NCBI RefSeq assembly: GCF_021401125.1
Contig: NZ_JACBFQ010000009.1
Span: 124,001 to 188,000, forward strand
Origin: Xanthobacter sp. NM-59
GTDB taxonomy: Bacteria; Pseudomonadota; Alphaproteobacteria; Rhizobiales; Xanthobacteraceae
Length of the DNA: 64,000 nt
Direction: 5' to 3'
Below are positions 18,651 to 38,203 of this stretch, piece by piece; the first letter of the stretch is position 1; each line of letters opens with the position of its first letter. The notes beneath the pieces were generated by a model that saw only the letters and a list, made by a program, of their open reading frames with translations, searched no databases and had not been told where the DNA came from. The translations under genes and the position numbers were made by a program.

Positions 18651-18668
18651 CGGATAAAGGTGAGCGCC

Positions 18669-22226: not shown

Positions 22227-24043
22227 TGCTGCCGGACATGCTCGATATCTCGACCCTGAAGGCAGGCTATGGGGCCGGCACCTTCACCCCCCTCGACGTG
22301 ATCGAGGAGGTGATCCGCCGTCTCCATCAGGCCACCGACCCCGCCATCTGGATCTCGCGCTTCTCCGATGACGAGTTGCGCGCCGCCGCGCGGGCGCTCA
22401 TGGCCGAGGGTGGGCGCGAAGCGCGCCCGCTGTGGGGCATGCCCTTCGCGGTGAAGGACAATATCGACGTGAAGGGGCTGGCCACCACCGCCGCCTGCCC
22501 CGCCTTCGCCTATGAGCCGGCGCGTGACGCCGTGGTGGTCGAGCGCCTGAAGGCGGCGGGCGCGCTGGTCATCGGCAAGACCAATCTCGACCAGTTCGCC
22601 ACCGGCCTCAACGGCACCCGCTCGCCCTATGGCGCGCCGCGCAGCGTGTTCAATGCCGACTATATCTCCGGCGGTTCCTCCTCCGGCTCGGCTGTGGCGG
22701 TGGCCTCGGGGCTGGTGGCCTTCTCGCTGGGCACCGACACGGCGGGCTCGGGCCGCGTGCCGGCGGCGTTCAACAATCTGGTGGGCGTGAAGCCCACCAA
22801 GGGCCTGGTGCCGAACACCGGGCTCGTGCCCGCATGCCGCAGCCTCGACTGCATCTCCGTCTTCGGCGTCACCACCGGGGATGCAACGCTGGTGCGCCAG
22901 ATGATGGAAGGCGCGGACGAAGGCGACGCCTATTCCCGCGCCAGCGCCGCCCGTCCCCTGCCGCTCACGGGCTTCCGCTTCGGAGTGCTCGCGGGCAAGG
23001 AACGCTTCTTCGACGGCGACAAGGAGGCCGAGGCCCTCTACGACACCTCCATTGCGCGCCTCACGGCGCTGGGCGGCACCGCCGTTCCCATCAATTACGC
23101 GCCGTTCCGCGACTGCGCGAACCTGCTCTATGGCGGCCCCTGGGTGGCCGAGCGCCTCGCGGCCATCGAGAACTTCTTCGATGGCCACGCGCAGGAGATG
23201 GACCCCACCGTGCGCACCATCGTCGGCGGCGGGCGCAAGTTCTCGGCCGTGGATGCCTTCTGCGGCGCCTATGCGCTGGAAGCCTATCGCAAGGCCACCG
23301 ACGGCGAATGGGCGAAGATGGACGTGCTGCTGCTGCCCACCGCGCCGCGCATCACCACGGTGGCCGACATGCAGGCCGAACCCATCGCCCTCAATTCCAT
23401 GCTCGGGCGCTACACCAATTTCGTGAACCTGCTGGACTGCTGCGGCGTCGCCGTGCCCGCCGGCTTCCGCGCCGATGGGCTGCCGGTGGGCGTGACGCTC
23501 ATCGCCCCCGCTTTCTGCGATGATGCCCTGGCGGTGCTGGCGGACCGGCTGCACCGCGCCGCCGCCAAGGACACCCCTTGCGGCCTTGGGCGCGATCGCG
23601 GCGCCGCGCTGCCGGAGGCCGCCCGGCTTGCCCCCTCCACCGATGGGCTGGTGCCCCTGGTGGTCGTGGGCGCCCACCTGTCGGGCATGCCGCTCAATCC
23701 CGAGCTGACGCGGGCCGGCGGCGTGCTGCTGAAGGCCTGCCGCACCACGCCGGACTATCGCCTGCACGAACTGCCGGGTACGGTGCCGCCCAAGCCTGGA
23801 CTGGTGCGCGAGCCGGGCTTTGCCGGCCCCGGCATCGAGGTGGAGGTGTGGGGGCTGCCGGCCGCCGCCTTCGGTGCGTTCGTGGCCGCCATTCCCGCCC
23901 CCTTGGGCATCGGCAAGATCTCGCTGGATGACGGCAGCGCCGCCAGCGGCTTCCTGTGCGAGGCCCACGCCATCGCCCAGGCCCGCGACATCACCAGCTT
24001 CGGCGGCTGGCGCGCTTGGCGCGCCCAAGGCAGCGCGGCATAG
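22226..24043 (+). CDS. atzF: Allophanate hydrolase AtzF
   Basis: A 605-aa amidase-signature enzyme that hydrolyses allophanate to two ammonia and two CO2. The catalytic Lys is in AVKDNIDVKG (~76) and the Ser-cisSer pair in GGSSSGSAVAVASG (~150). The C-terminal ~150 residues (from LVPLVVVGAHLSGMPLNPELTRAGG) are the AtzF-specific C-terminal domain. Translation is coupled to the carboxylase: its ATG overlaps the preceding stop in TGATG at 22224-22228. It is the final enzyme of the guanidine pathway in this operon. The usual length for the family is ~600 residues. Confidence 0.93.
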   Translation: MLPDMLDISTLKAGYGAGTFTPLDVIEEVIRRLHQATDPAIWISRFSDDELRAAARALMAEGGREARPLWGMPFAVKDNIDVKGLATTAACPAFAYEPARDAVVVERLKAAGALVIGKTNLDQFATGLNGTRSPYGAPRSVFNADYISGGSSSGSAVAVASGLVAFSLGTDTAGSGRVPAAFNNLVGVKPTKGLVPNTGLVPACRSLDCISVFGVTTGDATLVRQMMEGADEGDAYSRASAARPLPLTGFRFGVLAGKERFFDGDKEAEALYDTSIARLTALGGTAVPINYAPFRDCANLLYGGPWVAERLAAIENFFDGHAQEMDPTVRTIVGGGRKFSAVDAFCGAYALEAYRKATDGEWAKMDVLLLPTAPRITTVADMQAEPIALNSMLGRYTNFVNLLDCCGVAVPAGFRADGLPVGVTLIAPAFCDDALAVLADRLHRAAAKDTPCGLGRDRGAALPEAARLAPSTDGLVPLVVVGAHLSGMPLNPELTRAGGVLLKACRTTPDYRLHELPGTVPPKPGLVREPGFAGPGIEVEVWGLPAAAFGAFVAAIPAPLGIGKISLDDGSAASGFLCEAHAIAQARDITSFGGWRAWRAQGSAA

Positions 24044-24467: not shown

Positions 24468-25448
24468 TCAGAAGAAGCGATCGAAGCGCACGCGGTCGGC
24501 GGGCAGCCCACCTTCGCGCACAAGCATCGTCTCCAGCGCCTGCATCATCGGAGGCGGGCCGGCGCAATAATAGTCGAAGCGATCCATGGTCCCCTCAAGC
24601 CAGGCCTGCGCCGCCTCGTGCACCATGCCGTGCGCGAGCCCGCGCACCATCTCCCCCGACACCACCGGCACATAAGTCAGGCGCGGCCCGAGACCGGTCA
24701 GCGCATCGAGACACGCCACATCCAGCACATCGGCGCCGGTGCGCCCGCCATGGAAGAAGATCACGCGCCTGGGCGATCCCTCCGCCGCCACGGCACGGGC
24801 AATGGAGACCATCGGCGCCAGGCCCGAGCCCCCCGCCAGGCACACCACGTCCCTTTCCCCCGGCCGCAGATGGGCCAGGCCGAACGGCCCGTCGAGCGTG
24901 ACCTCGTCCACCGCCCCCTCGAACAGGCGCGTGGTCATGCGCCCGCCGGGCACACGGCGCACCATCACCTCGAACACCCCCGCCTCATTGGGCAGGTTGG
25001 CGAGGGAATAGGCGCGCTCCAGGCCATCGGACAAAGACAGCATCACATATTGCCCAGGCAGGAAACGCGCCGGCCCCTCGGCCCGGAAGCGGAAGCTGCG
25101 GATGTCGTGGGTGATGTCGTCGCTGCCGTCCAGCACCGCCTTGCACCGCACGGGAGAGATCAACGGCACGCAGGCCGGGTCCAGCCGCACCTTCACCGTG
25201 CAATCCCCACGCGCACGGCATTGGCAGGCCAGAACGCGCCCCTTGCGCCGGTCGCGATCGGAGAGGCCCGGCGCGTCGGGCCAAAGGTTCTCCACCTCGC
25301 CGGAGGTGACTTCCACCTTGCAGGTGCCACAGCCGCCGGCATTGCATTCGTAAGGCAGGCCGAGGCCCGCGCGCAGGCCGGCCCGCAACAGGGTGTCGTG
25401 GTCCGCGCAGTCGAAGGTGTCGCCGGTGTCGAGGGTGATCCGCGCCAT
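24468..25448 (-). CDS. Ferredoxin-FNR-type oxidoreductase (oxygenase reductase component)
   Basis: A 326-aa protein. An N-terminal plant-type 2Fe-2S ferredoxin domain (~1-90) has CNAGGCGTCKVEV and a late CQCRARGDC Cys. It is followed by an FAD domain (~100-200, RAYSLANLPNEAG) and an NAD domain (VCLAGGSGLAPMVSIARAV ~220, YYCAGPPPMM ~300). This is the arrangement of reductases for class IA/II Rieske or soluble di-iron oxygenases (BenC/XylZ-like). It probably reduces the neighbouring Rieske ferredoxin or the Rieske oxygenase directly. It is the last gene of the operon, 3 bp after the ferredoxin gene. Confidence 0.9.
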   Translation of the reverse strand: MARITLDTGDTFDCADHDTLLRAGLRAGLGLPYECNAGGCGTCKVEVTSGEVENLWPDAPGLSDRDRRKGRVLACQCRARGDCTVKVRLDPACVPLISPVRCKAVLDGSDDITHDIRSFRFRAEGPARFLPGQYVMLSLSDGLERAYSLANLPNEAGVFEVMVRRVPGGRMTTRLFEGAVDEVTLDGPFGLAHLRPGERDVVCLAGGSGLAPMVSIARAVAAEGSPRRVIFFHGGRTGADVLDVACLDALTGLGPRLTYVPVVSGEMVRGLAHGMVHEAAQAWLEGTMDRFDYYCAGPPPMMQALETMLVREGGLPADRVRFDRFF

Positions 25449-25451
25449 GGC

Positions 25452-25781
25452 TCAGGCCACCAGCACAATGTCGCCGCCGCGCAGCTCGAAGCGATGGACC
25501 TTCAGGGGAATGGTGCACGGCGCCCCGCACGGCTTGCCGGTGGCGAGCTCAAACGCCCCCGAATGCCAGGGGCATTCCACCACCATGTCCTCCGCATCCA
25601 GCTCCCCTTCGGAAAGGGAGGCATCCCCATGGGTGCAGGTGTCGTCGGTGACGAAAAAATGCCCGCCGACGCGGAACACGGCCAGCGGCGCGCGGCCGTC
25701 CAATTCCACCTTCAGCGCCCCGCCTTCCGGCACGTCGGAAGCGCGGCAGAGCACGATGTCGTCCGTCAGGGTCTCGCTCAT
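25452..25781 (-). CDS. Rieske-type [2Fe-2S] ferredoxin
   Basis: A 109-aa ferredoxin with the Rieske ligands CTHGDASLSEG (~49) and CPWHSGAFELATGKP (~70): one Cys-His pair in each. It is the BphF/NdoA-type electron carrier of Rieske non-haem iron oxygenases, cytosolic. The start ATG overlaps the SDR stop by 4 bp. Its presence beside both a 2Fe-2S reductase and a Rieske oxygenase alpha subunit indicates a three-component oxygenase, although the operon also encodes a flavin monooxygenase. Confidence 0.93.
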   Translation of the reverse strand: MSETLTDDIVLCRASDVPEGGALKVELDGRAPLAVFRVGGHFFVTDDTCTHGDASLSEGELDAEDMVVECPWHSGAFELATGKPCGAPCTIPLKVHRFELRGGDIVLVA

Positions 25782-26566
25782 GCTTCGATCTCCGCCAGGG
25801 AAAGGCCCCGCCGCTCGGGCCCCAGGGTCAGATAGCCGCCATCCACCGACAGGGTGGTGCCGGTGATGAGGGAGGCGCGCGGCGACAGCAGAAACAGCAC
25901 CGCCTCGGCCACCTCGTCCGGATCTCCGACCCGGCCGGTGATGTGCATGGGCGCGGCGATGCGATCCGCCTTCGCCCGGTCACCGCCGACCATGGCGGAG
26001 ATGGGCGCGGACCAAGTCCAGCCCAGCGACACCGCGTTCACGCGGATGCCGTCGCCGGCAAGATCAAGGGCCTCCGAGCGCGTGACCTGCTCGATGGTGG
26101 CCTTGGTGGCGGGATAGACCCAGCGTCCCGCCTGGGCGATGTGCCCCGACACGCTGGTGAAGTTCACCACCGAGCCGCCGCCCTGGGCCGCCATGTGCGG
26201 TCGGCAGGCCTGAAGGAAGGCGATGCCCCCGAACACGTTCACATTGAACGCCGCCGCCCAGTCCGCCCGCGAGGAGGACGGCCCCTGGTCGATGTAGCAG
26301 GCGGCCGCATTCACCAAGGCGTCGATACGTCCGAAGCGCTCCACGCAGGTGGCGACCGTGGCCGCGATGGCGCCATCATCCCCCACGTCGGTGCGGACGA
26401 AGAGCCCGGCGGCGCCGAGCTCCGTCACCACCCGCGCGCCACCCTCCGCGTCGATATCGGCGATGACGACGCGGGCGCCCGCCTCCACCAGCTTGCGCGC
26501 CACAGCGGCGCCGATGAGGGTGGCGCCGCCGGTGACGATGGCCACCTTGCCCGACAAATCAGCCAT
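25778..26566 (-). CDS. Short-chain dehydrogenase/reductase
   Basis: A 262-aa classical SDR. It has an N-terminal cofactor motif VTGGATLIGAAVA (~10), NAAA at ~90 in place of NNAG, the catalytic Ser in VVNFTSVSGHIA (~140) and WVYPATKATIEQV with Tyr and Lys (~150). D in VVIADIDAEGG suggests NAD preference. It may oxidise a dihydrodiol, hydroxy or epoxide-derived intermediate in this pathway. Its ATG overlaps the flavin reductase stop by 8 bp and its own end overlaps the ferredoxin gene by 4 bp. It is probably a dihydrodiol dehydrogenase or an IifB-like hydroxyindolinone enzyme, but this is inference. Confidence 0.9.
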   Translation of the reverse strand: MADLSGKVAIVTGGATLIGAAVARKLVEAGARVVIADIDAEGGARVVTELGAAGLFVRTDVGDDGAIAATVATCVERFGRIDALVNAAACYIDQGPSSSRADWAAAFNVNVFGGIAFLQACRPHMAAQGGGSVVNFTSVSGHIAQAGRWVYPATKATIEQVTRSEALDLAGDGIRVNAVSLGWTWSAPISAMVGGDRAKADRIAAPMHITGRVGDPDEVAEAVLFLLSPRASLITGTTLSVDGGYLTLGPERRGLSLAEIEA

Positions 26567-27101
26567 GGCTCGCCTCCTGAAGGCTCGGCCAGCTTCGGAG
26601 CGCCCCGTTGCAGAACACAAGGGGCTGGGCTCCGGCGCCGCGCCGGTGCGCAACCACCCGGCCGATGAGAATGATGTGGTCGCCGCCCTCCACCACCTCG
26701 TGCCGCGCGCACTCGAACGTGGCGAGGCAGCCCGGCAACAGCGGCGCGCCGCCCGCGCCCGCATCGAGATCGAGCCCCGCGAACCGGTCCGCGCCCGGGC
26801 GGGCGAAGCGGTTGCACAGTTCTTCCTGGGCGGCGGAAAGCACATTGATCGCGAAATGCGTCGCGCCCCGGAACAGGGACAGGCGCGGCGAAGTCTTGGC
26901 CAGGCTCCACAGCACCAAGGGCGGATCCAGGGAGACCGAGGCGAAGGAGTTCACCGTCAGCCCCACCTTCTCACCCTCCGGCGCCAGCGTGGTCACCACG
27001 CACACGCCGGTGGCGTAGAGGGAGAGGGAACGGCGCAAGGCGCGCCGCTCCGCTTCCACGGTCTCGGACGCAGCGTCGAGCGACACCATCTCACGCGACA
27101 T
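26559..27101 (-). CDS. Flavin reductase of the HpaC/StyB family
   Basis: A 180-aa NAD(P)H:flavin oxidoreductase with LRRSLSLYATGVCVVTT, VGLTVNSFASVSLDPPLVLWSLAKTS (~45-75), FAGLDLDAGAGGAPLLPGCLATFEC and GDHIILIGRVVAHR (~145). It provides reduced FAD for the styrene-monooxygenase-like enzyme encoded just upstream. The ATG at 27101 lies within the end of that gene, 11 bp before its stop, so the two are translationally coupled like styA-styB. An alternative start is the second Met (MVSLDAA). It is clearly related to, but not the same as, the flavin reductase at 10245-10748. Confidence 0.9.
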   Translation of the reverse strand: MSREMVSLDAASETVEAERRALRRSLSLYATGVCVVTTLAPEGEKVGLTVNSFASVSLDPPLVLWSLAKTSPRLSLFRGATHFAINVLSAAQEELCNRFARPGADRFAGLDLDAGAGGAPLLPGCLATFECARHEVVEGGDHIILIGRVVAHRRGAGAQPLVFCNGALRSWPSLQEASHG

Positions 27102-28356
27102 GGGCCACCTTCGACGCCACATAACGCTTGGCCGCGTCGAGGTCGGCGATGGCCGGCCAGAAGCGGGTGGGATCGTTGAAGTTACCGCAGAACTCGTCGG
27201 CGATGGCCGGCACCTTGGAGGCGGCGCCGAGGATTTCCATCACCGCCGGCGTGGGCGGCACCAGCAGGCCATTGGTGAACCCGCAGGTATATTGCCCGGA
27301 GGTCTCCCAGAAGCCGTTGAACAGGCTTTCCATCCAGTCGCGGTCGAACGGCTTGTCGCCCCGCTCCAGAATGGCGGCGAGATAGGCCTTCACCATACGA
27401 TTGGCATTGTTGGCGCCCTGCCCGGCGATGGGATCGTTGAGCACCACCGCGTCGCCGATGCCGAACACGATATTGCCCGAGGGCAGCACGCCCACCGGCT
27501 TGCGGGTGACGGGCGTGAACGAGCCCTTCAGCCACGCATTAGCGTCGGTCAGCTCCATGTCGTCGGGCACGTGCTCGGCCTGGTCGGGGGTGAGGCGCTT
27601 CACCACCTCACGCACGGTGGCCAGCATCTCCGCGCCGTCCTTCACGTCCTGGAACACATCCATGGGGCCGCCGGGCACGGCCTCGAAGAGGAAGGAGCGG
27701 CACTCGCCCTTGGTGTGCGTATAGAAGGGCAGCGAGAAGTATTCGCCCGCCCCCGCAATGAAGTTGAAGCGCAGCGGACGGAACGGGATCTCGCGCCATG
27801 GCCGGTCACCGGTGAGGTTCGACCCCGTCACCAGCACGGCGGCGAGATTGCGCGGCGGCACCTTGTGGGGCGAGCGGGCCTCGTCGCGCTCAAACAGGGC
27901 CGTGATTGCGCCCTTGCCGGCGGCGACGATGGTAAGGTCGTTCTCGGCCGAGATGCGCTCCAGGTCGGCGATGGTGATGGCCTGGATGACGAGCCGCCCG
28001 CCACGCCGGGAGAATTCGTTCATCCAGCGGTGGAACTTGGTGCGCACGTCCAGCGCCTGGCCATGATTGACGCCGAGCCGCCCCTGCACGGACAGGCCCA
28101 CGGTGCCGTCCGGCCCGCGGAAGTCCACATGGATGCCCTCGCCATAGGGGCCGACGTCTTCCCAGAAATTCAGGCACAGATCGCGCTCGATCTTCAGCGA
28201 GCTTTCGAACAGGAAGGCCGTGGTGGCGAGGCGCGAATGCAGCACCTGCTCTGCCGTGCGGTCCGAATAGATGGTGACGTCGTAGCCTTTGTCGATCAGG
28301 CCGAAGCCGAGCAGCAGGCCGGCCTGCCCGCCGCCGATGATGGCGATCTTGCGCAT
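27091..28356 (-). CDS. Styrene/indole monooxygenase-type FAD oxygenase (StyA/IifC family)
   Basis: A 421-aa flavoprotein monooxygenase with an N-terminal FAD motif IAIIGGGQAGLLLGFGL and YDVTIYSDR. The C-terminal part (IADEFCGNFNDPTRFW) resembles the end of StyA. The second FAD motif is at GIGDAVVLNDPIAGQGANNANRM (~300-325). Family members epoxidise styrene or indole with reduced FAD from a separate reductase. The N-terminus was set at ATG 28356 because the FAD motif begins five residues later. The gene has its reductase immediately downstream and SnoaL-fold and Rieske genes upstream, a combination not found in plain styrene clusters. The substrate is unknown: styrene, indole or a similar alkene/heteroarene. 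Confidence 0.88.
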   Translation of the reverse strand: MRKIAIIGGGQAGLLLGFGLIDKGYDVTIYSDRTAEQVLHSRLATTAFLFESSLKIERDLCLNFWEDVGPYGEGIHVDFRGPDGTVGLSVQGRLGVNHGQALDVRTKFHRWMNEFSRRGGRLVIQAITIADLERISAENDLTIVAAGKGAITALFERDEARSPHKVPPRNLAAVLVTGSNLTGDRPWREIPFRPLRFNFIAGAGEYFSLPFYTHTKGECRSFLFEAVPGGPMDVFQDVKDGAEMLATVREVVKRLTPDQAEHVPDDMELTDANAWLKGSFTPVTRKPVGVLPSGNIVFGIGDAVVLNDPIAGQGANNANRMVKAYLAAILERGDKPFDRDWMESLFNGFWETSGQYTCGFTNGLLVPPTPAVMEILGAASKVPAIADEFCGNFNDPTRFWPAIADLDAAKRYVASKVAHVA

Positions 28357-28381
28357 GGGATGTTCCTTGAAATCTGGAAGG

Positions 28382-28876
28382 TCACGGCCGGGTCTTGAAG
28401 CCCGGCTCGTGGGGGCTGATGAGGGGCAGATCGAGGGTGACGTGGCAGAAGCGCCAGCCGTCGGGCGCGCGCTTGAGGCGCGTGTCGTAGGTGCCGCCCA
28501 GGAAGTGGGCCACCGCCTCGTCGCCGGGCTGGTCCTTGATCTTGGAGAGCTCCCACAGCCACCAGCGGCAGCGGGCGCCCTCCCCGTCCTCGTCGATGTC
28601 AATCACCGGCGAGGTCATGTAATGCAGCGTCCAGACGATGGTTTCGCGGCCGATGCGGGCGAGCTCGCTCACGATCAGCTCGCGGCCCTGGAAGCGGCCG
28701 AAGCCGGCCGCCTCCCACACCGCATCCCCGGTGTACAATCCGGCGAAGATCTCCGGATCGTTCCGCCGGTCGGCGCCGAGGGCATAGAGCCCGACGAGCC
28801 TGCGGATCTCCTCCAGGCTTTCGAGCCGCGCCAAGCGGCGCTCCAGCCCATCGGTACCGCCCATCGCGGTGCTCAT
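28382..28876 (-). CDS. SnoaL/NTF2-fold protein (possible oxygenase small subunit)
   Basis: A 164-aa protein with the NTF2-like order LEEIRRLVGLYALGADRRNDPEIFAGLYTGDAVWEAAGFGRFQG, then WTLHYMTSPVIDIDEDGEGARCRWWLWE and a C-terminal HVTLDLPLISPHEPG. It matches SnoaL_4-type proteins that go with Rieske oxygenases or act as isomerases/hydrolases; aromatic oxygenase beta subunits have a related fold. It overlaps the small gene upstream by 4 bp and precedes the StyA-like gene by 25 bp. It might be the beta subunit for the Rieske alpha, or a free enzyme in the pathway (IifA-like roles have been reported for unrelated folds). The function is not assigned. Confidence 0.78.
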   Translation of the reverse strand: MSTAMGGTDGLERRLARLESLEEIRRLVGLYALGADRRNDPEIFAGLYTGDAVWEAAGFGRFQGRELIVSELARIGRETIVWTLHYMTSPVIDIDEDGEGARCRWWLWELSKIKDQPGDEAVAHFLGGTYDTRLKRAPDGWRFCHVTLDLPLISPHEPGFKTRP

Positions 28877-29211
28877 GCCGGGATCTGGCCGTGCTCGGCG
28901 ACGAAGCGGGCCTCGTCGAACGAGTGCGGCACCTTCGGATCGCCGCGATAGAGCTCCACGTGGGGCGCCACCTCGGCCATGGACAGGGCCATCCAGAACA
29001 CCGGCTTGGCCTCCGGCGCGATCTGACCAAGGGGGAATTGATCCACATATTCCAGGATCTTGGGCAGCGCGGGCAGCATCGCCTCGTAGAATTCCTTCAG
29101 CTCCACCTTGGTGGAGCTGATGCGCTTGTGCTGCCGCTCATCCTGGGTGGACAGCGCCCAGGCGGCGAAGGGGGCGAGGCCCTGGAAATCCGCGGGAAGG
29201 GTCGTGGTCAT
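28873..29211 (-). CDS. Conserved small protein of unknown function (Rieske operon)
   Basis: A 112-aa protein; I recognise no named domain. It is mostly helical in appearance: DFQGLAPFAAWALSTQDERQHKRISSTKVELKEFYEAMLPALPKILEYVDQ, then PVFWMALSMAEVAPHVELYRGDPKVPHSFDEARFV. It has no signal peptide, no Cys and no membrane segment. Its start lies 11 bp after the Rieske alpha gene and its end overlaps the SnoaL gene by 4 bp, so it is a real translated member of the operon. Position and size suggest an accessory or assembly subunit of the Rieske oxygenase. Confidence 0.72.
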   Translation of the reverse strand: MTTTLPADFQGLAPFAAWALSTQDERQHKRISSTKVELKEFYEAMLPALPKILEYVDQFPLGQIAPEAKPVFWMALSMAEVAPHVELYRGDPKVPHSFDEARFVAEHGQIPA

Positions 29212-29221
29212 CGCGTCATCC

Positions 29222-30424
29222 TCACTCGGCGGCGGTCATGAAGTGTTCAAGGGCGTGGTAGCCGTGGCGGATGAGCACCTCGTCATCCTGCAGGTGCATC
29301 ACGGTCTTGGCGCCGGATTCGAGGGCGTCCTGGGTATCCTCCATGGTGGCGGTATCTTCCAGCCACGCATTGCGCTGGAGCACCTGGGAGAATTCCTGCG
29401 CCCACACTTCCGAGTTGGTCTTCGGCATGGGCAAGTAATACTTACCTTCCCACCGCGTCTTGTTGTGGGCGAGCGGCCAGAACTGGTGGGTGAACCAGAT
29501 GCCTTCCGAGACATGCAGCAGCAGGTTCGGGAACAGCACCGACAGCTCGAAGGAGAAATCGGGGCGGCGATCCGGGTTCACGCTCGGCGGCAGCATGGAG
29601 GCGCCGCGATTGGTGACCAGCGAGGCGCCGGTGATGGAGTTGGCGAGCTTGGCCACGGGCTTGGGCTCGGCATCCATGGACAGGCACACCGCCGTGGTGC
29701 GGTGGGGGCCGAACAGCTGCACGTTCTGAAGGCCCGAGGAGAACACGTTCGGGAACGAACCGGCGTGGATGGTGGCCACGTGATAGGCTTCCGCGAAGGC
29801 GTCGTGGGCGACCTTCCAGTTGCAGTTCAGAACCGTGTTGTAGGCATAGCACTTGCCCATCTTCTCATAGGGGAAGTCGCCGAGATGCCGGCCGATGCCG
29901 CCCAGGAAATCGGTGAGGCTCTCCTTGCCCTCCGCGTCGAGATTGACGAACACGAAGCCGGCCCACACCTCAGTGCGCACGGGGGTCAGGCCATTTTCGC
30001 CGCGATGGAAGCAGGAGTGGAACTTCTCCTCCTCCGGCACGGAGACCAGTTCGCCCTTGGCGTCATAGACCCAGCCGTGGAAGCGGCAGGTGACCACCGC
30101 CGCCTTGCTGGAGCCGAAGGTTTCGTCGCCGGTCTCCACCACCACCTTGTTGCCCCGGTGGGAGCACACATTGTGGAAGCCGCGAACGGTACCGTCCTTG
30201 CCGCGGATGAGGATGATGGAGGTGTGGGCGAAGGCCAGCTTCTTCACCTTGAAGTCGCCGGCCTTGGGCATTTCCTCCACCCGCGCCACCTTCAGCCAGG
30301 CCTTCTTGAACACCTTCTCCATCTCGGCGTCGAAGAAAGCGGGGGAGACGCAGGGTTCCACCGGGATGGGGCCGGTGCCGAGCTCGGGAAAGGCCGAAGC
30401 CCACTTCTGCTGGGTGTCAGACAT
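29222..30424 (-). CDS. Rieske non-haem iron oxygenase, alpha subunit
   Basis: A 400-aa ring-hydroxylating oxygenase alpha subunit. The Rieske domain (~40-155) shows CSHRGNKVV and CRFHGWVYDAKGE, giving Cys-X-His and Cys-X2-His ligands. The catalytic domain has the mononuclear iron motif AFAEAYHVATIH (~205-217) with the bridging Asp before it. It belongs to the group of aromatic, terpenoid and amine-acting oxygenases with a 400-residue alpha chain. The start at 30424 is preferred to the Met 15 bp upstream because SDTQQKWAS begins the conserved part. Gene order (alpha, small, SnoaL, StyA-like, reductase, SDR, ferredoxin, FNR) is unusual. Confidence 0.9.
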   Translation of the reverse strand: MSDTQQKWASAFPELGTGPIPVEPCVSPAFFDAEMEKVFKKAWLKVARVEEMPKAGDFKVKKLAFAHTSIILIRGKDGTVRGFHNVCSHRGNKVVVETGDETFGSSKAAVVTCRFHGWVYDAKGELVSVPEEEKFHSCFHRGENGLTPVRTEVWAGFVFVNLDAEGKESLTDFLGGIGRHLGDFPYEKMGKCYAYNTVLNCNWKVAHDAFAEAYHVATIHAGSFPNVFSSGLQNVQLFGPHRTTAVCLSMDAEPKPVAKLANSITGASLVTNRGASMLPPSVNPDRRPDFSFELSVLFPNLLLHVSEGIWFTHQFWPLAHNKTRWEGKYYLPMPKTNSEVWAQEFSQVLQRNAWLEDTATMEDTQDALESGAKTVMHLQDDEVLIRHGYHALEHFMTAAE

Positions 30425-30435
30425 GGATGTGCTCC

Positions 30436-31734
30436 TCAAAGTCCGTATTGGGCGCGCACGAGATGGGCGATGCCGAGCCGTTCCAGGATCGACATGGGGC
30501 AGAGGAAGGTGACGCGCACCACGCCCGGCAGACGGCTGATCTCGATGGAGCCGGTGATGGTGGCCCGGTTCAGGATCTCGTCGTAGGGCAGGCCCGTGAT
30601 GGCGGCGGCGCGCTCCAGGCCGTTCTTGGTGGCATCATTGAGGTTGGCGGCGGAGCCGATGAAGGTGATGGGGCCGTTCTCCTCCACCTCCATCTGGCCG
30701 TAGCGGGCGCCGAGCGCCTTCACGGCAGCCTTCTGGGCGCCGGTCATGGGGCGTGCCATGGGCGGCAGGTCGTCGGGGCGCTGGAGCAGGATGGGGCCAT
30801 CGATGCCAAGGCCCTTGATGACCTCCACCTCGACCTCGGTCTCGCCCGAGACGTCGGTGGCGTGGCCGGCGATCTCGCCATTGCCCTGCTGGGCGTGCAT
30901 GTCGCCCATATAGATGCCGGCGCCCTTCACCTTCACCGGGCAGATGAGGATGGCCCCCTCGCGCACCGAATTGGTGTCCATGTGGCCATCGGTCTTGGCG
31001 GCGGCCAGGGCCTCGGCGGTCAGCGCGTATTTGTGCGGCGCGCCCACCAGGAAGGAGCCGAAATCGCCCGCATTGTGGGAGTCCGGAATGTCGGCCGAAG
31101 GAGTCGAGCCGATATTGCCGAGGAAGGGCTGCATGTGGGCCGCAAGGCCCGCAATGTCCGCATGGGCAAGGCTGAGGATGGAATGCTGCTCCGCCGCCGC
31201 CGGCAGGGCCGAGAACGCGCTCGCCTCGCCGGCCAGCTTCGCCGCCACGTCCTTGCTGACGGTGAGGCTCACGCCCGCCTCGCGGTCCAGCACGATCACA
31301 TAGCCATTGGCGACACGGAACGCATTCACCTCGGAGCCGCAGACGTCGCAGTGAATGGCCTCGTCGCCGATGCCTTCCACGTGGCTCGGCGGGCTCATGG
31401 TGCCGCACACCGGGCAGAGCTTGGCCACGAAGGGGTCACCCTGATAACGCCCCTCCACAAACTCCATCACGCCCGAGGCGGTGGCGAGCGAGGTGACCTG
31501 CATCCTGCGGATCTTGATGGCCACCGCGTCGCCCACCTCGGCGCCCTCCACGGCCACCGGCTGGGTCACCTCATGACCACCCTGGAATTTGGGGGTGATC
31601 ATGGGCCCCCAGCAGCCCGGAGGCGTGCCGGTGCGGATGGTGCCGCCATCGGCCACCGGGCCGAGCATGGGAACCGACGGACCGACGATGCCGCCGGAAT
31701 AGGAAAACACATCGATGACGGGCACAGCCGGCAT
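30436..31734 (-). CDS. Acetamidase/formamidase family hydrolase
   Basis: A 432-aa member of the FmdA/AmdA acetamidase-formamidase family. It shows VFSYSGGIVGPSVPMLGPVADGGTIRTGTPPGCWGPM near the N-terminus, an internal zinc-ribbon-like element (CPVCG ~107 and CDVCG ~130) and GDMHAQQGNGEIAGHATDVSGETEVEVEV (~285). Such enzymes release ammonia from formamide, acetamide or larger amides. In this operon it could remove an amide or N-formyl group produced by ring cleavage or present in the substrate. It starts 30 bp after the outer-membrane channel gene and ends 11 bp before the Rieske gene. Confidence 0.85.
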   Translation of the reverse strand: MPAVPVIDVFSYSGGIVGPSVPMLGPVADGGTIRTGTPPGCWGPMITPKFQGGHEVTQPVAVEGAEVGDAVAIKIRRMQVTSLATASGVMEFVEGRYQGDPFVAKLCPVCGTMSPPSHVEGIGDEAIHCDVCGSEVNAFRVANGYVIVLDREAGVSLTVSKDVAAKLAGEASAFSALPAAAEQHSILSLAHADIAGLAAHMQPFLGNIGSTPSADIPDSHNAGDFGSFLVGAPHKYALTAEALAAAKTDGHMDTNSVREGAILICPVKVKGAGIYMGDMHAQQGNGEIAGHATDVSGETEVEVEVIKGLGIDGPILLQRPDDLPPMARPMTGAQKAAVKALGARYGQMEVEENGPITFIGSAANLNDATKNGLERAAAITGLPYDEILNRATITGSIEISRLPGVVRVTFLCPMSILERLGIAHLVRAQYGL

Positions 31735-31764
31735 GATCTTGAACTCCGAAAAATGTGCAGAAAT

Positions 31765-32646
31765 TCAGAAAGCAGCGATGATGTTGACCCACACCCGGTC
31801 GCCCTGCGGCTTATTTTCCACCGCGAACTCGCTCATATACTTGGCGACAGCGGTGAGTTTTCCGGACGTGTACATGATCTGCGGGCCGAGACCGACCGCC
31901 TGCCCTTCAAAGCCGCCGAACACGGCGCCAAGGCCACTGTCAGGCGTGGTCTGCTTATAGGCATAGCCGCCGACGCCGATGGCGAACGGGCCGAAATGCT
32001 TGGCCGCCACGAAGTCCGTGTGCAACTCCTGGCCGGACTGGTAGTTGGTATCCTGGTTCTCCGTGTTGAAGTCGTACATGACCTTCGCGGAGAACTCCCA
32101 ACCATCCTTATTCAGGTAGGTGAAGGCGAAGACGGGCGTGAAAGTGAAGTAGTTCCGCCCGGTATTGGCGAGCGAGTTCGCATCGTAGCGCCCGGTCGGC
32201 AAGGTGATGTCGAAGCCGGTGATGAAGTTCCAGTCGCCGAAGTGCCAGCCCAGAATAAAGGGATCGATGGTGATATCGCTGATGCCGGTGGAATGCCCCG
32301 ACATGCCGCCGAAGGACGCGTCCACGCTGGCGATGGGCAGGAAGGCGTGCATGGCCCAGTTGGCGCCCAGGATCTGCACATCGGTAACATAGATGGCGCG
32401 GAATACGGTGGCCGCGGCCGTGGCACTGAAGTCGTTGAAGAGCGGACTGCTGTTCTTGAAGGTGCTGGCCGTATAATATTCGTTGTAGCTGACCAGATAG
32501 AAACCGGGCGGCGGCAGATAGCCGGTCATGAAGCTTTCGGCGCCGTTCTGGTAGGAGCCGCCACCACCTTCGGTGGCGTGCGCCGCCCCCGCGCCGCAGA
32601 ACAGCAGCGAAGTGGCAACAAGAATACGCTGTGCTGTGTGAGACAT
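31765..32646 (-). CDS. SphA/MetA-type outer-membrane channel protein
   Basis: A 293-aa protein with a clear signal peptide (ILVATSLLFCGAGAAHA, cleavage ~24) and a beta-barrel-like alternating pattern ending in aromatic Phe (WVNIIAAF). It resembles the MetA-pathway-of-phenol-degradation / SphA family, which forms outer-membrane channels for hydrophobic aromatics. This supports an aromatic or hydrophobic substrate for the operon. It is the first gene of the operon, 138 bp after the response regulator, with a palindrome upstream. Confidence 0.85.
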   Translation of the reverse strand: MSHTAQRILVATSLLFCGAGAAHATEGGGGSYQNGAESFMTGYLPPPGFYLVSYNEYYTASTFKNSSPLFNDFSATAAATVFRAIYVTDVQILGANWAMHAFLPIASVDASFGGMSGHSTGISDITIDPFILGWHFGDWNFITGFDITLPTGRYDANSLANTGRNYFTFTPVFAFTYLNKDGWEFSAKVMYDFNTENQDTNYQSGQELHTDFVAAKHFGPFAIGVGGYAYKQTTPDSGLGAVFGGFEGQAVGLGPQIMYTSGKLTAVAKYMSEFAVENKPQGDRVWVNIIAAF

Positions 32647-32771
32647 CGTGACCCCAGTGTCAGGTTTCGCCGCCAGATTTGACTTCCGGCTGGCTCCCGC
32701 GTCCCCGCAGGTTCTGGAGTCACTTTAGAAAGGCGCACGGATCGCCCTCAATTGGGGACGATCGCAGACCT

Positions 32772-32789
32772 ATTAGGGTTTTCCCTAAT
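32772..32789. promoter_or_regulatory. Candidate operator for the two-component regulator (ATTAGGG palindrome)
   Basis: The plus strand reads ATTAGGG-TTTT-CCCTAAT, a perfect 7-bp inverted repeat with a 4-bp spacer. Read on the minus strand, its ATTAGGG arm contains the TAG stop codon of the response regulator. It lies about 125-145 bp upstream of the channel-protein start. The short arms and 4-bp spacer fit the symmetric sites bound by StyR/TodT- and FixJ-type regulators, so it may activate the catabolic operon. Confidence 0.6.
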
Positions 32790-33447
32790 GGATGTCGGGG
32801 GTCTCCCCAGATGCCGGCTTCACGCCGCACACCATCTGCACAATCTTGGCAAGGCTGTCGGTGCCCAACTTCTGTCGAATATTGGCGCGATGCACCTCGA
32901 CGGTCTTGGGACTGATGCCCAATTCATGGGCGATCTGCTTATTTTGATGCCCTTCGATCATCAGGTCAAGTACCGCCCGCTCGCGGGGGGAGAGGGAATG
33001 CAGGCGCTGGGCCCGGCGCGTATTGTGCTGCGCCTCGGCAAAAAGGCGTGCGCCTTCCGCCACGGCCGCCTGGATGGTGTCGATCATCACCTGATAATTG
33101 AAGGGCTTCTGGATGAAGTCGAAAGCCCCGCTTTTGAGCGCCCGCACCGACATGGGCACGTCGCCATGGCCGGTGATGAAGACGATGGGCAAGGGCGCGC
33201 CCCGCCGCGACAGCTCCTTCTGAAGGTCGAAACCGCCCATCATGGGCATGCGCACGTCGAGCACCACGCAGCCGGGCCTGCCCGTGTCATAGGCATCGAG
33301 GAACTCGGCCGCCCCCGCGCACACGCGCAAGTCACACCCAACGGATTCCAAAAGGAAGCGCAGGGAGGTGCGCACCGCGTCGTCGTCATCCACGATATAG
33401 ACGACAGGCACGGGGGCCCCGGCCTCCGGTCGCGGCGGTGTGCTCAT
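32785..33447 (-). CDS. FixJ/StyR-type LuxR-family response regulator
   Basis: A 220-aa response regulator. The receiver domain (~15-130) has VYIVDDDDAV, the phosphoacceptor Asp in VVLDVRMPMMGG (~65), FITGHGDVPMSVRALKSGAFDFIQKPF and Lys at ~115. The C-terminal LuxR/GerE helix-turn-helix is LSPRERAVLDLMIEGHQNKQIAHELGISPKTVEVHRANI (~150-190). It overlaps the kinase gene by 4 bp. The same strand and adjacency to the operon, plus the palindrome at its 3' end, suggest it activates the catabolic genes. Confidence 0.92.
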   Translation of the reverse strand: MSTPPRPEAGAPVPVVYIVDDDDAVRTSLRFLLESVGCDLRVCAGAAEFLDAYDTGRPGCVVLDVRMPMMGGFDLQKELSRRGAPLPIVFITGHGDVPMSVRALKSGAFDFIQKPFNYQVMIDTIQAAVAEGARLFAEAQHNTRRAQRLHSLSPRERAVLDLMIEGHQNKQIAHELGISPKTVEVHRANIRQKLGTDSLAKIVQMVCGVKPASGETPDIH

Positions 33448-34946
33448 GCGCGGCCTCCCTTTTCTTCCTCGATGGGCAAGGCGACGTGGAACACCGTGCC
33501 CCTCGCCCCGGATGTCGCCCACATGTGCCCGGCATGGGAATCGACGATGGTGCGGCACAGAGCCAGGCCGATGCCCAGCCCCTCCTTCTTGGTGGTGTAG
33601 AAGGCGTCGAAGATCTGGTCCGGATTCATGCGCGGCAGGCCGTGGCCATTGTCCTCCACCGAGATGCGCACGGCGCGCGGCAGCCGATCGGTGGTGATCC
33701 GCAGCACCCGCCGCCCGGGCGCCGTGGCGGCCATCGCCTCGATGCCATTGAAAGCAATGTTGAGGATGACCTGCTCGATGAGGATGGGGTCCGCCACCGC
33801 GCTGACCGGCTGCTCGCACAGCCCATATTCCACCCGCGCCTCGGATCGCTCCGCCTTCAGGTCGATGAAGGAGGCCACGTCCCGCACCATCTCGTTCACA
33901 TCCACCTGCTGGCGCTGGGGTTCATTTCGGCGCGTGAAATTGAGGATGGACCCCATGATGCGCCCTGCCCGCTCAGCCTGGGCATTCACCTCGCGCAGCG
34001 CCGTCAGCGTCTCGTCCGGATCGAAGCGGCCGCTCTCCAGGCGATGGATGCAGCCGCCGATATAATTGCCGATGGCCGCGAACGGCTGGTTCAACTCGTG
34101 GGCCAGGGCCGAGGCCAATTCGCCCATGGAGCGGCAGCGCGCCACATGCTCCAGCTCACGCTCACGCTCGCGTGCCTTGCGCTCGGCCTCCACGCGCTCG
34201 GTCACGTCGCGGTAATTGACCAGGATGCCCTCCATCTCGGAGGTCCGCAGCAGGTTCTTCACCGTCGCCTCGTGATGGCGCCAGCCGCCGTCGCGGTGGA
34301 GGATGCGATAGGTGACGTGCTGGGCCCCATCCGCGTCGGCCGGGATCTGCCCCTCGGGACGCAGCAGCAGGCGGACCCGTTCGATGTCCGCAGGATGGAT
34401 ATAGTCCAGCACGTTGCGGCCGGTGGCGCGACGTTCGTCATAGCCCAACACCGTGGAGATGGAGGGTGACACATAGCGCAGCCGGCCGTTGGGCTGCACG
34501 ATGGCAATGCCATCGGAGGAATGCTGGATCAGGCGCCGGAAATGGGCCTCGCGCGCAATCAGCCGCTCCTCATAGAGCTTGCGCTCGCGAATGTCGCGGA
34601 ACAGCGCCAGCACCAGCCGGCGCCCTTCCACGGTGATGACCTTGAGGTTCACCTCCACCGGCAGCTCATCGCCCCCGCGCGGCAGTATGGTCCACTCAAA
34701 GGTCGAGCCGCCCTGCTCGCTGGCGCGGCGGATGAGCCGCAGCGCCTGCTCCGGGCAGAAGGGCTTGCGCGGCGGGCTGATGCCCGCAACCGTCATGGTC
34801 AGCAATTCATCGCGCGAGTACCCGGTCAGCAGTTCCGAGGTCTCGTTGGCCTCCAGGATCTGCCCGTCGTCAGGATCATGGATGAAGATCGCGTCGCTCG
34901 CGTTCTCGAATGCGGTTCGGTAATGGCTGTCGGAAAGCTGGCTCAT
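33444..34946 (-). CDS. PAS-domain sensor histidine kinase (FixL/StyS-like)
   Basis: A 500-aa soluble kinase with two PAS domains (YRTAFENASDAIFIHDPDDGQILEANETSELLTGYSRDEL ~10-120; FRRLIQHSSDGIAIVQPNGRLRYVSPSISTVLGYD ~130-250). The dimerisation/phosphoacceptor domain has SALAHELNQPFAAIGNYIGG with the His (~280). The ATPase domain has FNGIEAMAA, DNGHGLP and GLGIGLALCRTIVDSHAGHMWA. No membrane segment is seen, so a cytosolic small-molecule, redox or aromatic ligand sensed by a PAS domain is likely. The kinase is upstream of the regulator in the same operon and probably detects the pathway substrate. Confidence 0.92.
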   Translation of the reverse strand: MSQLSDSHYRTAFENASDAIFIHDPDDGQILEANETSELLTGYSRDELLTMTVAGISPPRKPFCPEQALRLIRRASEQGGSTFEWTILPRGGDELPVEVNLKVITVEGRRLVLALFRDIRERKLYEERLIAREAHFRRLIQHSSDGIAIVQPNGRLRYVSPSISTVLGYDERRATGRNVLDYIHPADIERVRLLLRPEGQIPADADGAQHVTYRILHRDGGWRHHEATVKNLLRTSEMEGILVNYRDVTERVEAERKARERERELEHVARCRSMGELASALAHELNQPFAAIGNYIGGCIHRLESGRFDPDETLTALREVNAQAERAGRIMGSILNFTRRNEPQRQQVDVNEMVRDVASFIDLKAERSEARVEYGLCEQPVSAVADPILIEQVILNIAFNGIEAMAATAPGRRVLRITTDRLPRAVRISVEDNGHGLPRMNPDQIFDAFYTTKKEGLGIGLALCRTIVDSHAGHMWATSGARGTVFHVALPIEEEKGGRA

Positions 34947-35911: not shown

Positions 35912-38203
35912 TCAGGCGTGCCCTAAGGCCCGCTTCGCCTCGGCATAACCGTCGGCAATATTGGCCTGCACCGCGAGATCGGAGAAATCATAGTCGCGCG
36001 AAGCATGCTCCGCGCCCTGGCCGCTGCGGACGATGCGGGTCATGGAGCTCATGGCGCCATCGCCCATGAGCTGGATAAAGGCGGGCAGACGCTTCACCTT
36101 GGCCGCCTCCACATCGTCGAGGCGGCTGACGATGTGGTCGACCAGCTTGCGATAATATTCGATCTTCTCGCGATAATGCAGATCACTCTGCACCCGTTCG
36201 GAATAGACGATCTCCTCGCGCCGCGCGAACACTTCGATCATGTTTGAGGGCAGCGGCCGGCGGCCGGAGAACAGGTCGACGATGAAGACCCGCTTGCCGT
36301 CCGGCCCGCAGCGCTCCAGCAGCAGATCCAGCGGCGAATTGTTGACGATCCCGCCATCCCAATAAGGCTTGCCGTCGATGATGGTCCAAGGGAAGCTCGG
36401 CGGCAGGCTGCCGCTGGCCAGAACGTGGTCGGCGGTCAGCTCGTCCACATAGCTGTCGAACACCTCCAGGCTGGCGGTGGTGACGTTCACCGCGCTCATC
36501 AGCAGCCGGACCGGGCTGTCCTTCAAGGTGGAGAAGTCCACATATTTGGCCAGCAGCGCCTTCATGGGCGAGGTGTCGTAATAGCTGGTCCAGTTGGCCG
36601 GCCAGTCCTCCGGCCCACGCGGGGGGATGACCCAGCGCGGCGTGAAGAAGTTCGGCACGCCCATGGTGAGAATGGTGGAGGCCGCCGCCGCCCGCCGCAT
36701 CTCCAGAAAGGGGAGCTGCGGGGTGGCCACGGACAGGTCGGCCCAGAAGGATTCCAGCGCCTCTGTGGCATGGCGCGGATTGGCCGCCACCACCGCGCCG
36801 TTCAGCGCGCCGATCGAGACGCCGGCGACGATGTCGGGGAAAATGCCCTCTTCCTCCAGCGCCTTCACCACCCCGCACTCGAACGCGCCGAGCGCGCCGC
36901 CGCCCTGGAGAATCAGCGCCGTCTGGGTGGGGATGTGATCAAGCACGAAGCTCGGCTCGCGCAGGCGATGCTTCACCGCGCCGAGAGACACCCGATAGCG
37001 GATCAGCCCTTCCGCCACCCGGATTTCATCGGGCGGCCGCCCCACGGTGAACAGTGCGCGCGGCACATCTCCCTTCAGGTAGAAGAGCCCGAACGAGCCG
37101 TTCTCCAGAGAACCGCGCGCAATCCAGTTGTCCGCCTCCTCGGTGGCGCCGAGCACGTTGAAGCCGATGTCGCCCACCTCGCAGAAGAAATAGGAGACTT
37201 CGTCATAGCGCAGCCGGCGCCCCAGCATGTTGCGGGCGGCCAGCCGGCCCTGCTTCAGCGCATTGTCCCAATGCTGCAGGTGACGGCGTCGGGCGAACAC
37301 GGGATCATGGAAATTGGTGATGTCGCCGGCGGCGAACACATTGGCGACGCCCGTGCGCAACTGTTCGTCCACCAGCACATAGCCCTCGTCGTCGAGGGGA
37401 ATGCCGCTCCCCGCGAGAAAGCTGGTGGCCGGGGTCGCGCCGATGGAAACGACAACGAGCTCGCACGGCACCCGGCGGCCGCCCGCGGTTTCCACCCCCT
37501 CCACCTTGTTCTTGCCGCGCACGGCGCTGACCGCGTCGCCCAGCAGCAGGGTGGCGCCCCGCTCGCGTGCATAGCCCTCGAAATATTGGGACAGGCTGTG
37601 AGCTTCCAGATGGGGCAGAAGGCGCGGCCCCTTCTCGATGATGGTGACCTTGAGGCCCTTCTCCAGCAGCGACATGGCGATTTCCATGCCGAGATAGCTG
37701 CCACCCAGCACCACCGCCCGCTTGGCCCCGACCATGGCGGCGCGAATGGCATCCGCATCGGTCTTGTGGCGCAGGCTGAAGACGCCGGGCAGCTTGGCGC
37801 CCGGCACGTCCAGCGGACGCGGCTTGGCGCCGGTGGCGATCAGCAGTTGGCCATAGCCGATGTGCTCGCCAGCGGCGGTGACGATCTGCTGCTTGACCGT
37901 GTCGATCCGCACCACCTTGGTGCCCAGCACCAGCGAGATGGCATTCTCTTCATAGAAACTCTGGGGATGGATGTAGATGTGCCCATCCGGGTCGTCGCCC
38001 AGCAGCAGGCCCTTGGACAGGGCCGTGTGATGATAGGGCGGCACATCCTCGGCCGAAACCATCATCACGGAGCCGGTGGCCCCCTCCGACCGCAGGGTTG
38101 CGGCCGCCGAAGCACTGGCGATGCCGCCCCCGAGCAGCAGGCAGTCCGCATAGCGCGTGATGCCGCCATGAAGCTGCTCTTGCGCTGGTCCGACCGCGTT
38201 CAT
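35912..38203 (-). CDS. FAD-dependent oxidoreductase-patatin phospholipase fusion
   Basis: A 763-aa fusion. Residues ~1-410 form a ferredoxin/rubredoxin-reductase-type FAD-NAD(P) oxidoreductase: CLLLGGGIASASAAATLRSEGA at the start, the second nucleotide motif AVVLGGSYLGMEIAMSLLEKG (~165) and NVFAAGDITNFHD (~290). Residues ~430-763 form a patatin-like lipase: LQGGGALGAFECGVVKAL (oxyanion glycines), GVSIGALNG (GxSxG nucleophile, ~470) and DGGIVNN (catalytic Asp, ~610). Both parts have intact motifs, so it is probably bifunctional: redox plus lipid hydrolysis. It may act at the membrane on lipid or polyester substrates. The start ATG (38203) follows the -GGGGAAGCG ribosome-binding region. Confidence 0.87.
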   Translation of the reverse strand: MNAVGPAQEQLHGGITRYADCLLLGGGIASASAAATLRSEGATGSVMMVSAEDVPPYHHTALSKGLLLGDDPDGHIYIHPQSFYEENAISLVLGTKVVRIDTVKQQIVTAAGEHIGYGQLLIATGAKPRPLDVPGAKLPGVFSLRHKTDADAIRAAMVGAKRAVVLGGSYLGMEIAMSLLEKGLKVTIIEKGPRLLPHLEAHSLSQYFEGYARERGATLLLGDAVSAVRGKNKVEGVETAGGRRVPCELVVVSIGATPATSFLAGSGIPLDDEGYVLVDEQLRTGVANVFAAGDITNFHDPVFARRRHLQHWDNALKQGRLAARNMLGRRLRYDEVSYFFCEVGDIGFNVLGATEEADNWIARGSLENGSFGLFYLKGDVPRALFTVGRPPDEIRVAEGLIRYRVSLGAVKHRLREPSFVLDHIPTQTALILQGGGALGAFECGVVKALEEEGIFPDIVAGVSIGALNGAVVAANPRHATEALESFWADLSVATPQLPFLEMRRAAAASTILTMGVPNFFTPRWVIPPRGPEDWPANWTSYYDTSPMKALLAKYVDFSTLKDSPVRLLMSAVNVTTASLEVFDSYVDELTADHVLASGSLPPSFPWTIIDGKPYWDGGIVNNSPLDLLLERCGPDGKRVFIVDLFSGRRPLPSNMIEVFARREEIVYSERVQSDLHYREKIEYYRKLVDHIVSRLDDVEAAKVKRLPAFIQLMGDGAMSSMTRIVRSGQGAEHASRDYDFSDLAVQANIADGYAEAKRALGHA

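Follow-up and report, generated by a model that had tools for sequence, protein, structure and literature searches.

Introduction

The closest described counterparts of the gene cluster reported here are bacterial systems that act on skatole (3-methylindole) and other indoles. The cluster lies at positions 24,468 to 34,946 of a 64,000-nucleotide stretch of the genome of Xanthobacter sp. NM-59 (contig NZ_JACBFQ010000009.1, positions 124,001 to 188,000; hereafter the window), and consists of twelve genes, all on the minus strand and read from 34946 to 24468. A sensor kinase and response regulator pair is followed by ten catabolic genes, among them those for a StyA-type monooxygenase, an amidase, a Rieske oxygenase and an unnamed protein of 112 amino acids (112-aa protein). 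Here we show how a core of this cluster recurs in other bacteria, and propose with moderate confidence that it most likely converts skatole, or a close 3-alkylindole, to catechol, with its own uptake and regulation.

According to the available text of PMC11434297, Acinetobacter piscicola p38, which comes from a pig sample, uses skatole as a carbon source, and its skatole-raised oxygenases include gene1684 (ring-hydroxylating alpha subunit), gene1687 (styrene monooxygenase) and gene1690 (ferredoxin, hcaC). Supplied with flavin adenine dinucleotide (FAD) and reduced nicotinamide cofactor (NAD(P)H), the products of 1687 and 1688 (flavin reductase) degraded both indole and skatole; tests of the pair covered whole cells and purified proteins. 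The list of indole-raised genes holds 1684 and 1650 and lacks 1687, gene 1650 encoding a separate monooxygenase that degraded indole. The p38 cluster is drawn in Figure 6b of that paper; counted from the Rieske alpha gene, the genes for Rieske alpha, monooxygenase, flavin reductase and HcaC-type ferredoxin stand at 0, +3, +4 and +6, and all four positions agree with the window. However, only monooxygenases and flavin reductases were tested there, and the word "amidase" is absent from the main text.

The ska cluster of Rhodococcus, with its monooxygenase SkaA, likewise brings together a Group E monooxygenase, a flavin reductase and a three-component ring-hydroxylating oxygenase, but has 14 genes and a LuxR-type regulator, with 7 kb between the genes for flavin reductase and monooxygenase (PMC13101512, available text). 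In our search for ska-like regions, 75 of 397 genomes of one actinobacterial order gave a match, and none of the 14 regions annotated, nor the indole-type locus L220, encodes a homologue of the Rieske alpha subunit, the amidase or the 112-aa protein; R. aetherivorans, the source of SkaA, is possibly outside this sample. The iif/ind indole clusters share with the window a Group E monooxygenase, a flavin reductase and a short-chain dehydrogenase (SDR), but end in anthranilate through the oxygenase IifA, where the window cluster instead has an amidase and a Rieske system (PMC6221969, available text). By domain content, none of the twelve window genes encodes a two-domain IifA-type oxygenase with a C-terminal SnoaL fold, the SnoaL protein of the cluster being single-domain. 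Lastly, the iac clusters resemble the window in their set of roles and in catechol as the end product, and differ in a first oxygenase of acyl-CoA-dehydrogenase fold and in an amidase of another family (PMC7225977, PMC11373566 and PMC11676955, available text); no IacA-type acyl-CoA-dehydrogenase domain was found in the ten catabolic proteins.

An earlier note on this DNA, made from the letters alone, knew of no described pathway with exactly this set of genes. As far as the published text goes, that was too strong: in p38, genes with matching products are spaced in the same way and skatole raises three of them, and the ska cluster of Rhodococcus is a similar union. In the open-licence literature searched, we found neither a paper that resolves the pathway as a whole nor one that deals with the cluster amidase or the 112-aa protein. 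The cluster is known in kind and partly described, its first half being known from relatives, and its second half and the 112-aa protein being unexplored in that literature.

Results

A nine-gene core is conserved among relatives

Relatives of the monooxygenase were sought in one genome per species, using an alignment of seven proteins as the query, and the best 80 of at least 299 stretches were kept. These 80 split at a gap into nine with 55-65% identity (L038-L046) and 71 with 46% or less (L047-L117). Together with two Acinetobacter plasmids from pig feces and pig manure (L021 and L022) and a stretch of genome G169 (L024), the former nine make up the 12 relatives considered below, across which monooxygenase identity is 55-80%. 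The core of nine genes, encoding amidase, Rieske alpha, 112-aa protein, SnoaL protein, StyA-type monooxygenase, flavin reductase, SDR, Rieske ferredoxin and reductase, is complete and in the same order in eight of the 12 (L021, L022, L024, L038, L039, L040, L041 and L045). In L042 and L046 a contig end falls within the cluster, Paraburkholderia fungorum (L044) carries it in two blocks with no ferredoxin detected, and in L043 only the monooxygenase is present, at a distance of 1.8 kb from a contig end, the cluster amidase not having been found in that genome. The channel gene is present in four of the 12, and L021 is flanked by catA, catC, muconate cycloisomerase and CoA-transferase genes.

The amidase (median 77% identity) and the Rieske alpha subunit (median 74%) are the best conserved cluster proteins, as expected for its committed core. 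None of the 71 more distant loci, of which 55 are at least 19 kb long and the others cut by contig ends, has a 112-aa or SnoaL homologue at an E-value (E) of 1e-3; a single amidase match (L078) and short Rieske matches at 27-29% in two loci (L055, L073) were seen among them. The earlier note had asked for gene order to be checked in other genomes, and there the order is indeed kept: the combination of StyA-type monooxygenase, Rieske system and amidase that it pointed out is one conserved unit, complete in the eight relatives named. Because gene order is conserved in other families, assembly of the cluster by chance is untenable.

The monooxygenase stands apart from the indole type

The window monooxygenase falls in Group E, matching PF17885 at 97.8 bits against 25. 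Its nearest structures in the PDB are 7z4x, an indole monooxygenase of Variovorax (348 bits), and 9lrq (334 bits), whereas the styrene monooxygenase 3ihm reaches 114 bits. Identity with StyA styrene monooxygenase was rejected, as the NCBIfam equivalog model gave 196 bits versus a cut-off of 550. For the tree, 47 loci and the window were taken as input, and a length filter removed L041, L049, L057, L058 and L071, leaving 43 rows; some distant rows are very long-branched, only the cluster clade was used, and SkaA and the p38 protein are not among the rows. Eleven rows from cluster-bearing loci, the window included, form with L043 a clade of their own (support 100/99), apart from the indole-type rows.

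This separation is also seen in the signature S46-Q48-M50 given for indole monooxygenases in the available text of PMC13101512, for which positions 46, 48 and 50 only were compared, with numbering mapped through the alignment. The clade has S or T, then A, T or P, then L, M or F in all 12 rows with letters at these positions (L046 is cut off there), the window reading T-A-L, while the 11 indole-type rows all read S-S-Q-C; Gln thus occurs in 0/12 clade rows versus 11/11 indole-type rows. The styrene signature Asn-Val-His, likewise taken from that text, is absent in 12/12 clade rows. Moreover, the genome of 4.96 Mb holds this one StyA-type gene, no second one having been found in it.

The amidase and Rieske genes also occur without a StyA-type gene

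For the amidase, the acetamidase/formamidase label of the earlier note holds at the level of the family (PF03069), but the formamidase part does not: FmdA identity was rejected at 41 bits versus an NCBIfam equivalog cut-off of 500, and the protein forms its own subfamily. It is 71-87% identical in six genomes, five with a full or split cluster and the sixth being G326, and the next best matches reach at most 40% over fewer than 90 residues, seven of the nine genomes or records searched having given any match.

The Rieske alpha subunit has C87, H89, C113, H116, E212, H215, H220 and D357 invariant in 28/28 aligned homologues, of which E212 is presumably the bridging residue and D357 the third iron ligand. 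With separate ferredoxin and reductase domains encoded beside it, these residues identify a three-component Rieske oxygenase. Its AlphaFold2 model (predicted local distance difference test, pLDDT, 90.8) has carnitine monooxygenase CntA as the best PDB match (6zgp, E 3.1e-26), with terephthalate dioxygenase also among the best matches and biphenyl-type alpha subunits close behind. No cluster protein matches the beta-subunit family Ring_hydroxyl_B at E 0.001, a diverged beta subunit being possible; SnoaL_4 is found instead, and it is possible that the SnoaL protein stands in for the beta subunit.

Two loci carry the amidase and Rieske genes and no StyA-type gene. L026 in G326 has the amidase and Rieske genes, and also encodes domains of alpha/beta-hydrolase, thiolase, CoA-transferase and muconate-cycloisomerase type. 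On a Novosphingobium plasmid (L023), genes for an FmdA-type amidase, Rieske alpha, 112-aa protein, SnoaL-type protein and ferredoxin stand in a row, with no StyA-type gene within 25 kb. The second half thus occurs without the first half.

On an Azospirillum ramasamyi plasmid from cow dung (L237), Rieske alpha, the 112-aa protein, two cupins, an NTF2-like protein, a ferredoxin and an asparaginase are encoded together, adjoining genes for an intradiol dioxygenase and a muconate cycloisomerase; this may be a parallel pathway with another hydrolase.

The 112-aa protein accompanies Rieske alpha genes

The 112-aa protein is the least expected part of the cluster. In the class sample its family has 36 matches in 18 of 385 genomes, the genome of NM-59 included, and all 36 members adjoin a Rieske alpha homologue, with the alpha gene cut by a contig end at two. 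In the reverse test, the alpha protein gave 43 matches, of which 30 loci were examined. Twenty-two of these match over at least 345 residues, and 19 of the 22 carry a 112-aa gene within the stretch, a single such gene between two alpha genes being common to L196 and L203. The three exceptions (L178, L179 and L201) show none in longer stretches either (L221-L223), and among the eight loci matching over the first half only, none has a 112-aa gene.

On plasmids the pairing is looser. Here 20 records match the 112-aa protein, 12 of them with an adjacent alpha gene as judged from annotation, inspection or match coordinates, while one (L239) has no alpha gene within 3 kb. Seven records have equal scores to one and the same part of the query; the three of these that were read (the Sphingobium plasmids L234, L235 and L241) carry one IS6100-flanked unit with linC and no adjoining alpha gene. 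This unit also holds a gene for an EthD-domain protein, with linA close by on two of the plasmids, and on L235 a shortened alpha-like gene lies about 4 kb from the 112-aa family member. Another genome, G138 (2.5 Mb), has ten 112-aa copies (L005, L020, L128-L132, L134, L136 and L137), each beside a Rieske alpha gene, and two more alpha genes of the clade without one (L179 and L201).

In the phylum sample the family was seen in one of 398 genomes, that of NM-59 itself, at most 11 candidates per genome having been scored, which makes this weak evidence of absence. The earlier note had called the protein unknown, and the domain search agrees in giving no family: across 30 members, each Pfam or NCBIfam model matches two at most at E 1, with best individual values of 0.041 and 0.0034, and a profile search of PDB sequences with the family gave nothing better than 0.024. 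The predicted structure has four helices (pLDDT 89.5), for which Foldseek found no fold match in the PDB (best E 3.6). As to a possible identity with IacB, the 112-aa protein has no match in one A. baumannii record, in which the presence of iac genes is unconfirmed.

Organization, regulation and surroundings of the cluster

The features are collected in Table 1. For the channel, amidase, Rieske alpha, SnoaL protein, StyA-type monooxygenase, reductases, SDR and ferredoxin, a domain search agrees with the assignments of the earlier note, whose genes, coordinates and two cluster ends are exactly those found here; its gene kinds stand as well, and its count of ten becomes twelve. The tight packing it described is also seen, most catabolic junctions being overlaps or gaps of fewer than 12 bases. 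With start codons as chosen in this analysis, overlaps measure 4 (kinase/regulator), 4 (112-aa/SnoaL), 8 (flavin reductase/SDR) and 4 bases (SDR/ferredoxin), and the remaining core gaps 11, 10, 25 (SnoaL-monooxygenase), 1 and 3 bases; 30 bases separate channel and amidase, and 138 regulator and channel. The SDR is 59% and 50% identical to the SDRs adjoining indole-type monooxygenase genes in L033 and L034.

Table 1. Features of the cluster, with positions in the window
Feature	Position	Strand	Basis
PAS-domain sensor histidine kinase, 500 aa	33444..34946	-	NCBIfam FixL best, 197 bits vs cut-off 850 (family resemblance only)
FixJ-family response regulator, 220 aa	32785..33447	-	NCBIfam FixJ 232 bits, under cut-off 255
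Candidate operator, 24-bp palindrome-like	32740..32763	no strand	Between regulator and channel genes
Outer-membrane channel, Phenol_MetA_deg family, 293 aa	31765..32646	-	PF13557, 1.1e-64
FmdA_AmdA-family amidase, 432 aa; proposed oxindole lactam hydrolase	30436..31734	-	PF03069
Rieske oxygenase alpha subunit, 400 aa	29222..30424	-	PF00355 and PF00848
112-aa protein; all-helical family with no name, associated with Rieske alpha genes	28873..29211	-	Genomic association, predicted fold
SnoaL/NTF2-fold protein, 164 aa; possible beta-subunit stand-in	28382..28876	-	PF13577 (SnoaL_4), 3.4e-20
Group E (StyA-type) flavoprotein monooxygenase, 421 aa	27091..28356	-	PF17885 (Smoa_sbd)
Flavin reductase, 176 aa, monooxygenase partner	26559..27089	-	PF01613, 2.6e-41
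SDR, 262 aa, proposed dihydrodiol dehydrogenase	25778..26566	-	PRK08265, 344.6 bits, above cut-off 294
Rieske ferredoxin, 109 aa	25452..25781	-	PF00355, 8.9e-18
BenC-like [2Fe-2S]/FAD/NAD reductase, 326 aa	24468..25448	-	Fer2, FAD_binding_6, NAD_binding_1; BenC 172 bits, under cut-off 430

A homologue of the FixL/FixJ-like kinase lies beside the cluster in nine of the 12 relatives, and one of the regulator in eight. A copy of the inner 22 bp of the candidate operator, differing at one position, lies upstream of the L024 channel gene (position 7629), with symmetry at 18/22 and 20/22 positions, and the pattern has no match at any other locus compared. An operator common to all clusters was rejected, as upstream stretches compared by eye share the site in the window and L024 only. 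In the 20-kb stretch of L024, homologues of the kinase and of the regulator are both absent. Directly past the last gene, at 24451-24425, lies a terminator-like hairpin of 11 pairs, which is only suggestive given 12 such sites of all strengths in a 12-kb stretch versus 6.4 expected.

Another contig of the host genome encodes a catechol 1,2-dioxygenase, muconolactone isomerase, muconate cycloisomerase and BenC above cut-off, together with a BenA-like protein that stays under it (728 versus 781 bits). The 112-aa gene was seen in none of 11 other genomes of the host family in the phylum sample, again with at most 11 candidates per genome scored, and the nearest cluster found (G169) belongs to another family; for these reasons, transfer of the cluster between lineages is likely.

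Elsewhere in the window, a pyridine-nucleotide-disulphide reductase is fused with a patatin-like phospholipase that has DUF3734, in one 777-aa frame at 35912-38245 (minus strand). Such a fusion is to our knowledge unusual, and the frame adjoins branched-chain amino acid ATP-binding cassette (ABC) transporter genes. At 18660-24043 (plus strand), a gene for a urea-carboxylase type protein is followed by one for an amidase with an allophanate hydrolase C-terminal domain, and preceded by ABC and NMT1-type transporter genes.

Discussion

How would such a cluster take skatole to catechol? In the pathway that we consider most likely, the StyA-type monooxygenase and its flavin reductase would epoxidise the indole 2,3-bond, and the SDR would oxidise the hydrated epoxide to 3-hydroxy-3-methyloxindole. 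The first of these reactions, and the product of the second, have been shown in published relatives; the role of the SDR is carried over from the indole pathway by analogy. As C3 is quaternary in this product, the cofactor-free ring opening of plain indole should fail, and we propose instead that the FmdA-type amidase hydrolyses the lactam to 2-(2-aminophenyl)-2-hydroxypropanoate. Supplied with electrons by the ferredoxin and reductase, and partnered by the 112-aa protein and perhaps by the SnoaL protein, the Rieske alpha subunit would then dioxygenate the two carbons to which the amino group and the side chain are attached; once ammonia is lost, a beta-hydroxyketone would remain, and retro-aldol cleavage would yield catechol and pyruvate. 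The chemistry of these two steps is an inference from the parts that the genes encode. Subsequent entry of catechol into ortho-cleavage is supported by gene content, and catechol-pathway genes lie near the module in L021 and L026, and near the Rieske/112-aa pair and asparaginase in L237.

Several observations weigh against this pathway. The window monooxygenase is just 56-59% identical to those of Acinetobacter, and carries Thr at a position that is Ser in the 11 other rows of the clade, while L043 has the monooxygenase in a genome without an amidase of the cluster type. Orthology to the p38 genes and to SkaA is drawn from gene order and family in the available text, not from sequence identity. 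As 1684 is raised by indole as well, 1687 being absent from the indole list, the Rieske part is not specific to skatole. Skatole cultures of p38 are also listed as giving "2-aminobenzene acetone" (PMC11434297, available text), which would favour a formylated intermediate if 2-aminoacetophenone is meant. Furthermore, purified SkaA alone gave 3-hydroxy-3-methyloxindole (PMC13101512, available text), so the SDR may be needless.

The earlier note suggested an N-heterocycle as a substrate, and an N-heterocycle is indeed the likely one. If that substrate were plain indole, the route would lead through 3-hydroxyindolin-2-one and 2-aminomandelate to catechol and glyoxylate. We regard this as improbable, although 1687 and 1688 of p38 act on indole, 1684 rises on it (PMC11434297, available text), and the SDR is similar to SDRs that adjoin indole-type monooxygenase genes. 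The window monooxygenase groups apart from the indole-type rows and is without the Gln that they carry, p38 lists a separate indole-degrading monooxygenase (1650) under indole, and an amidase and Rieske system would be needless where IifA yields anthranilate directly (PMC6221969, available text).

Less probable again is an oxidative opening of the ring to 2-formamidoacetophenone, in which the amidase would act as a deformylase and the Rieske oxygenase would turn 2-aminoacetophenone into catechol and acetate. Such a role is in keeping with the family name acetamidase/formamidase and with the "2-aminobenzene acetone" of the p38 cultures, but the formamidase model scores far below its cut-off, the ten catabolic proteins contain no ring-opening 2,3-dioxygenase domain, and the reported product of SkaA is 3-hydroxy-3-methyloxindole, not a formamide (PMC13101512, available text).

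We give a slightly lower chance still to another 3-substituted indole, such as indole-3-acetate or tryptophol, degraded by an analogue of the iac pathway. The roles found in iac do match, from oxygenase, flavin reductase, SDR, amidase and Rieske system down to a small unknown and a SnoaL-fold protein (PMC7225977, PMC11373566 and PMC11676955, available text); the ten catabolic proteins, however, have no acyl-CoA-dehydrogenase domain of IacA type and no Pfam Amidase domain, and skatole, joined by indole in the case of 1684, is the published inducer of the syntenic genes in p38 (PMC11434297, available text). Styrene or an aromatic amide, suggested by a StyA-type protein and an amidase in one cluster, is very unlikely to be the substrate, given the StyA score well under its cut-off, the missing Asn-Val-His signature (PMC13101512, available text) and the lack of an aldehyde dehydrogenase domain in the ten catabolic proteins.

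Beyond the conversion of skatole to catechol, we put forward a more speculative idea, which we hold to be possible and rather doubtful. The 112-aa protein may define a class of Rieske oxygenases, serving as a subunit or assembly factor so far unrecognised, and this class may here dioxygenate the lactam-derived 2-aminophenyl carbinol acid, in a new ring-freeing reaction that releases ammonia and pyruvate. An amide hydrolase and an oxygenase of this class would then constitute a portable module for the second half of a route to catechol, which would be combined with different first oxygenases in sphingomonads, Azospirillum and others.

Skatole is a malodorous compound of manure, and catechol is a common intermediate in the degradation of aromatics. 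In the available text of the respective papers, bacterial breakdown of skatole past 3-hydroxy-3-methyloxindole was called unresolved in 2026 (PMC13101512), and the step of auxin breakdown that leads from dioxindole-3-acetate to catechol was described as unfilled in 2020 (PMC7225977). The conserved unit of amidase and Rieske oxygenase gives concrete enzymes to be tested for a gap of that type, and through the unnamed 112-aa family, with its link to Rieske alpha genes, a well-studied class of enzymes could gain a further component.

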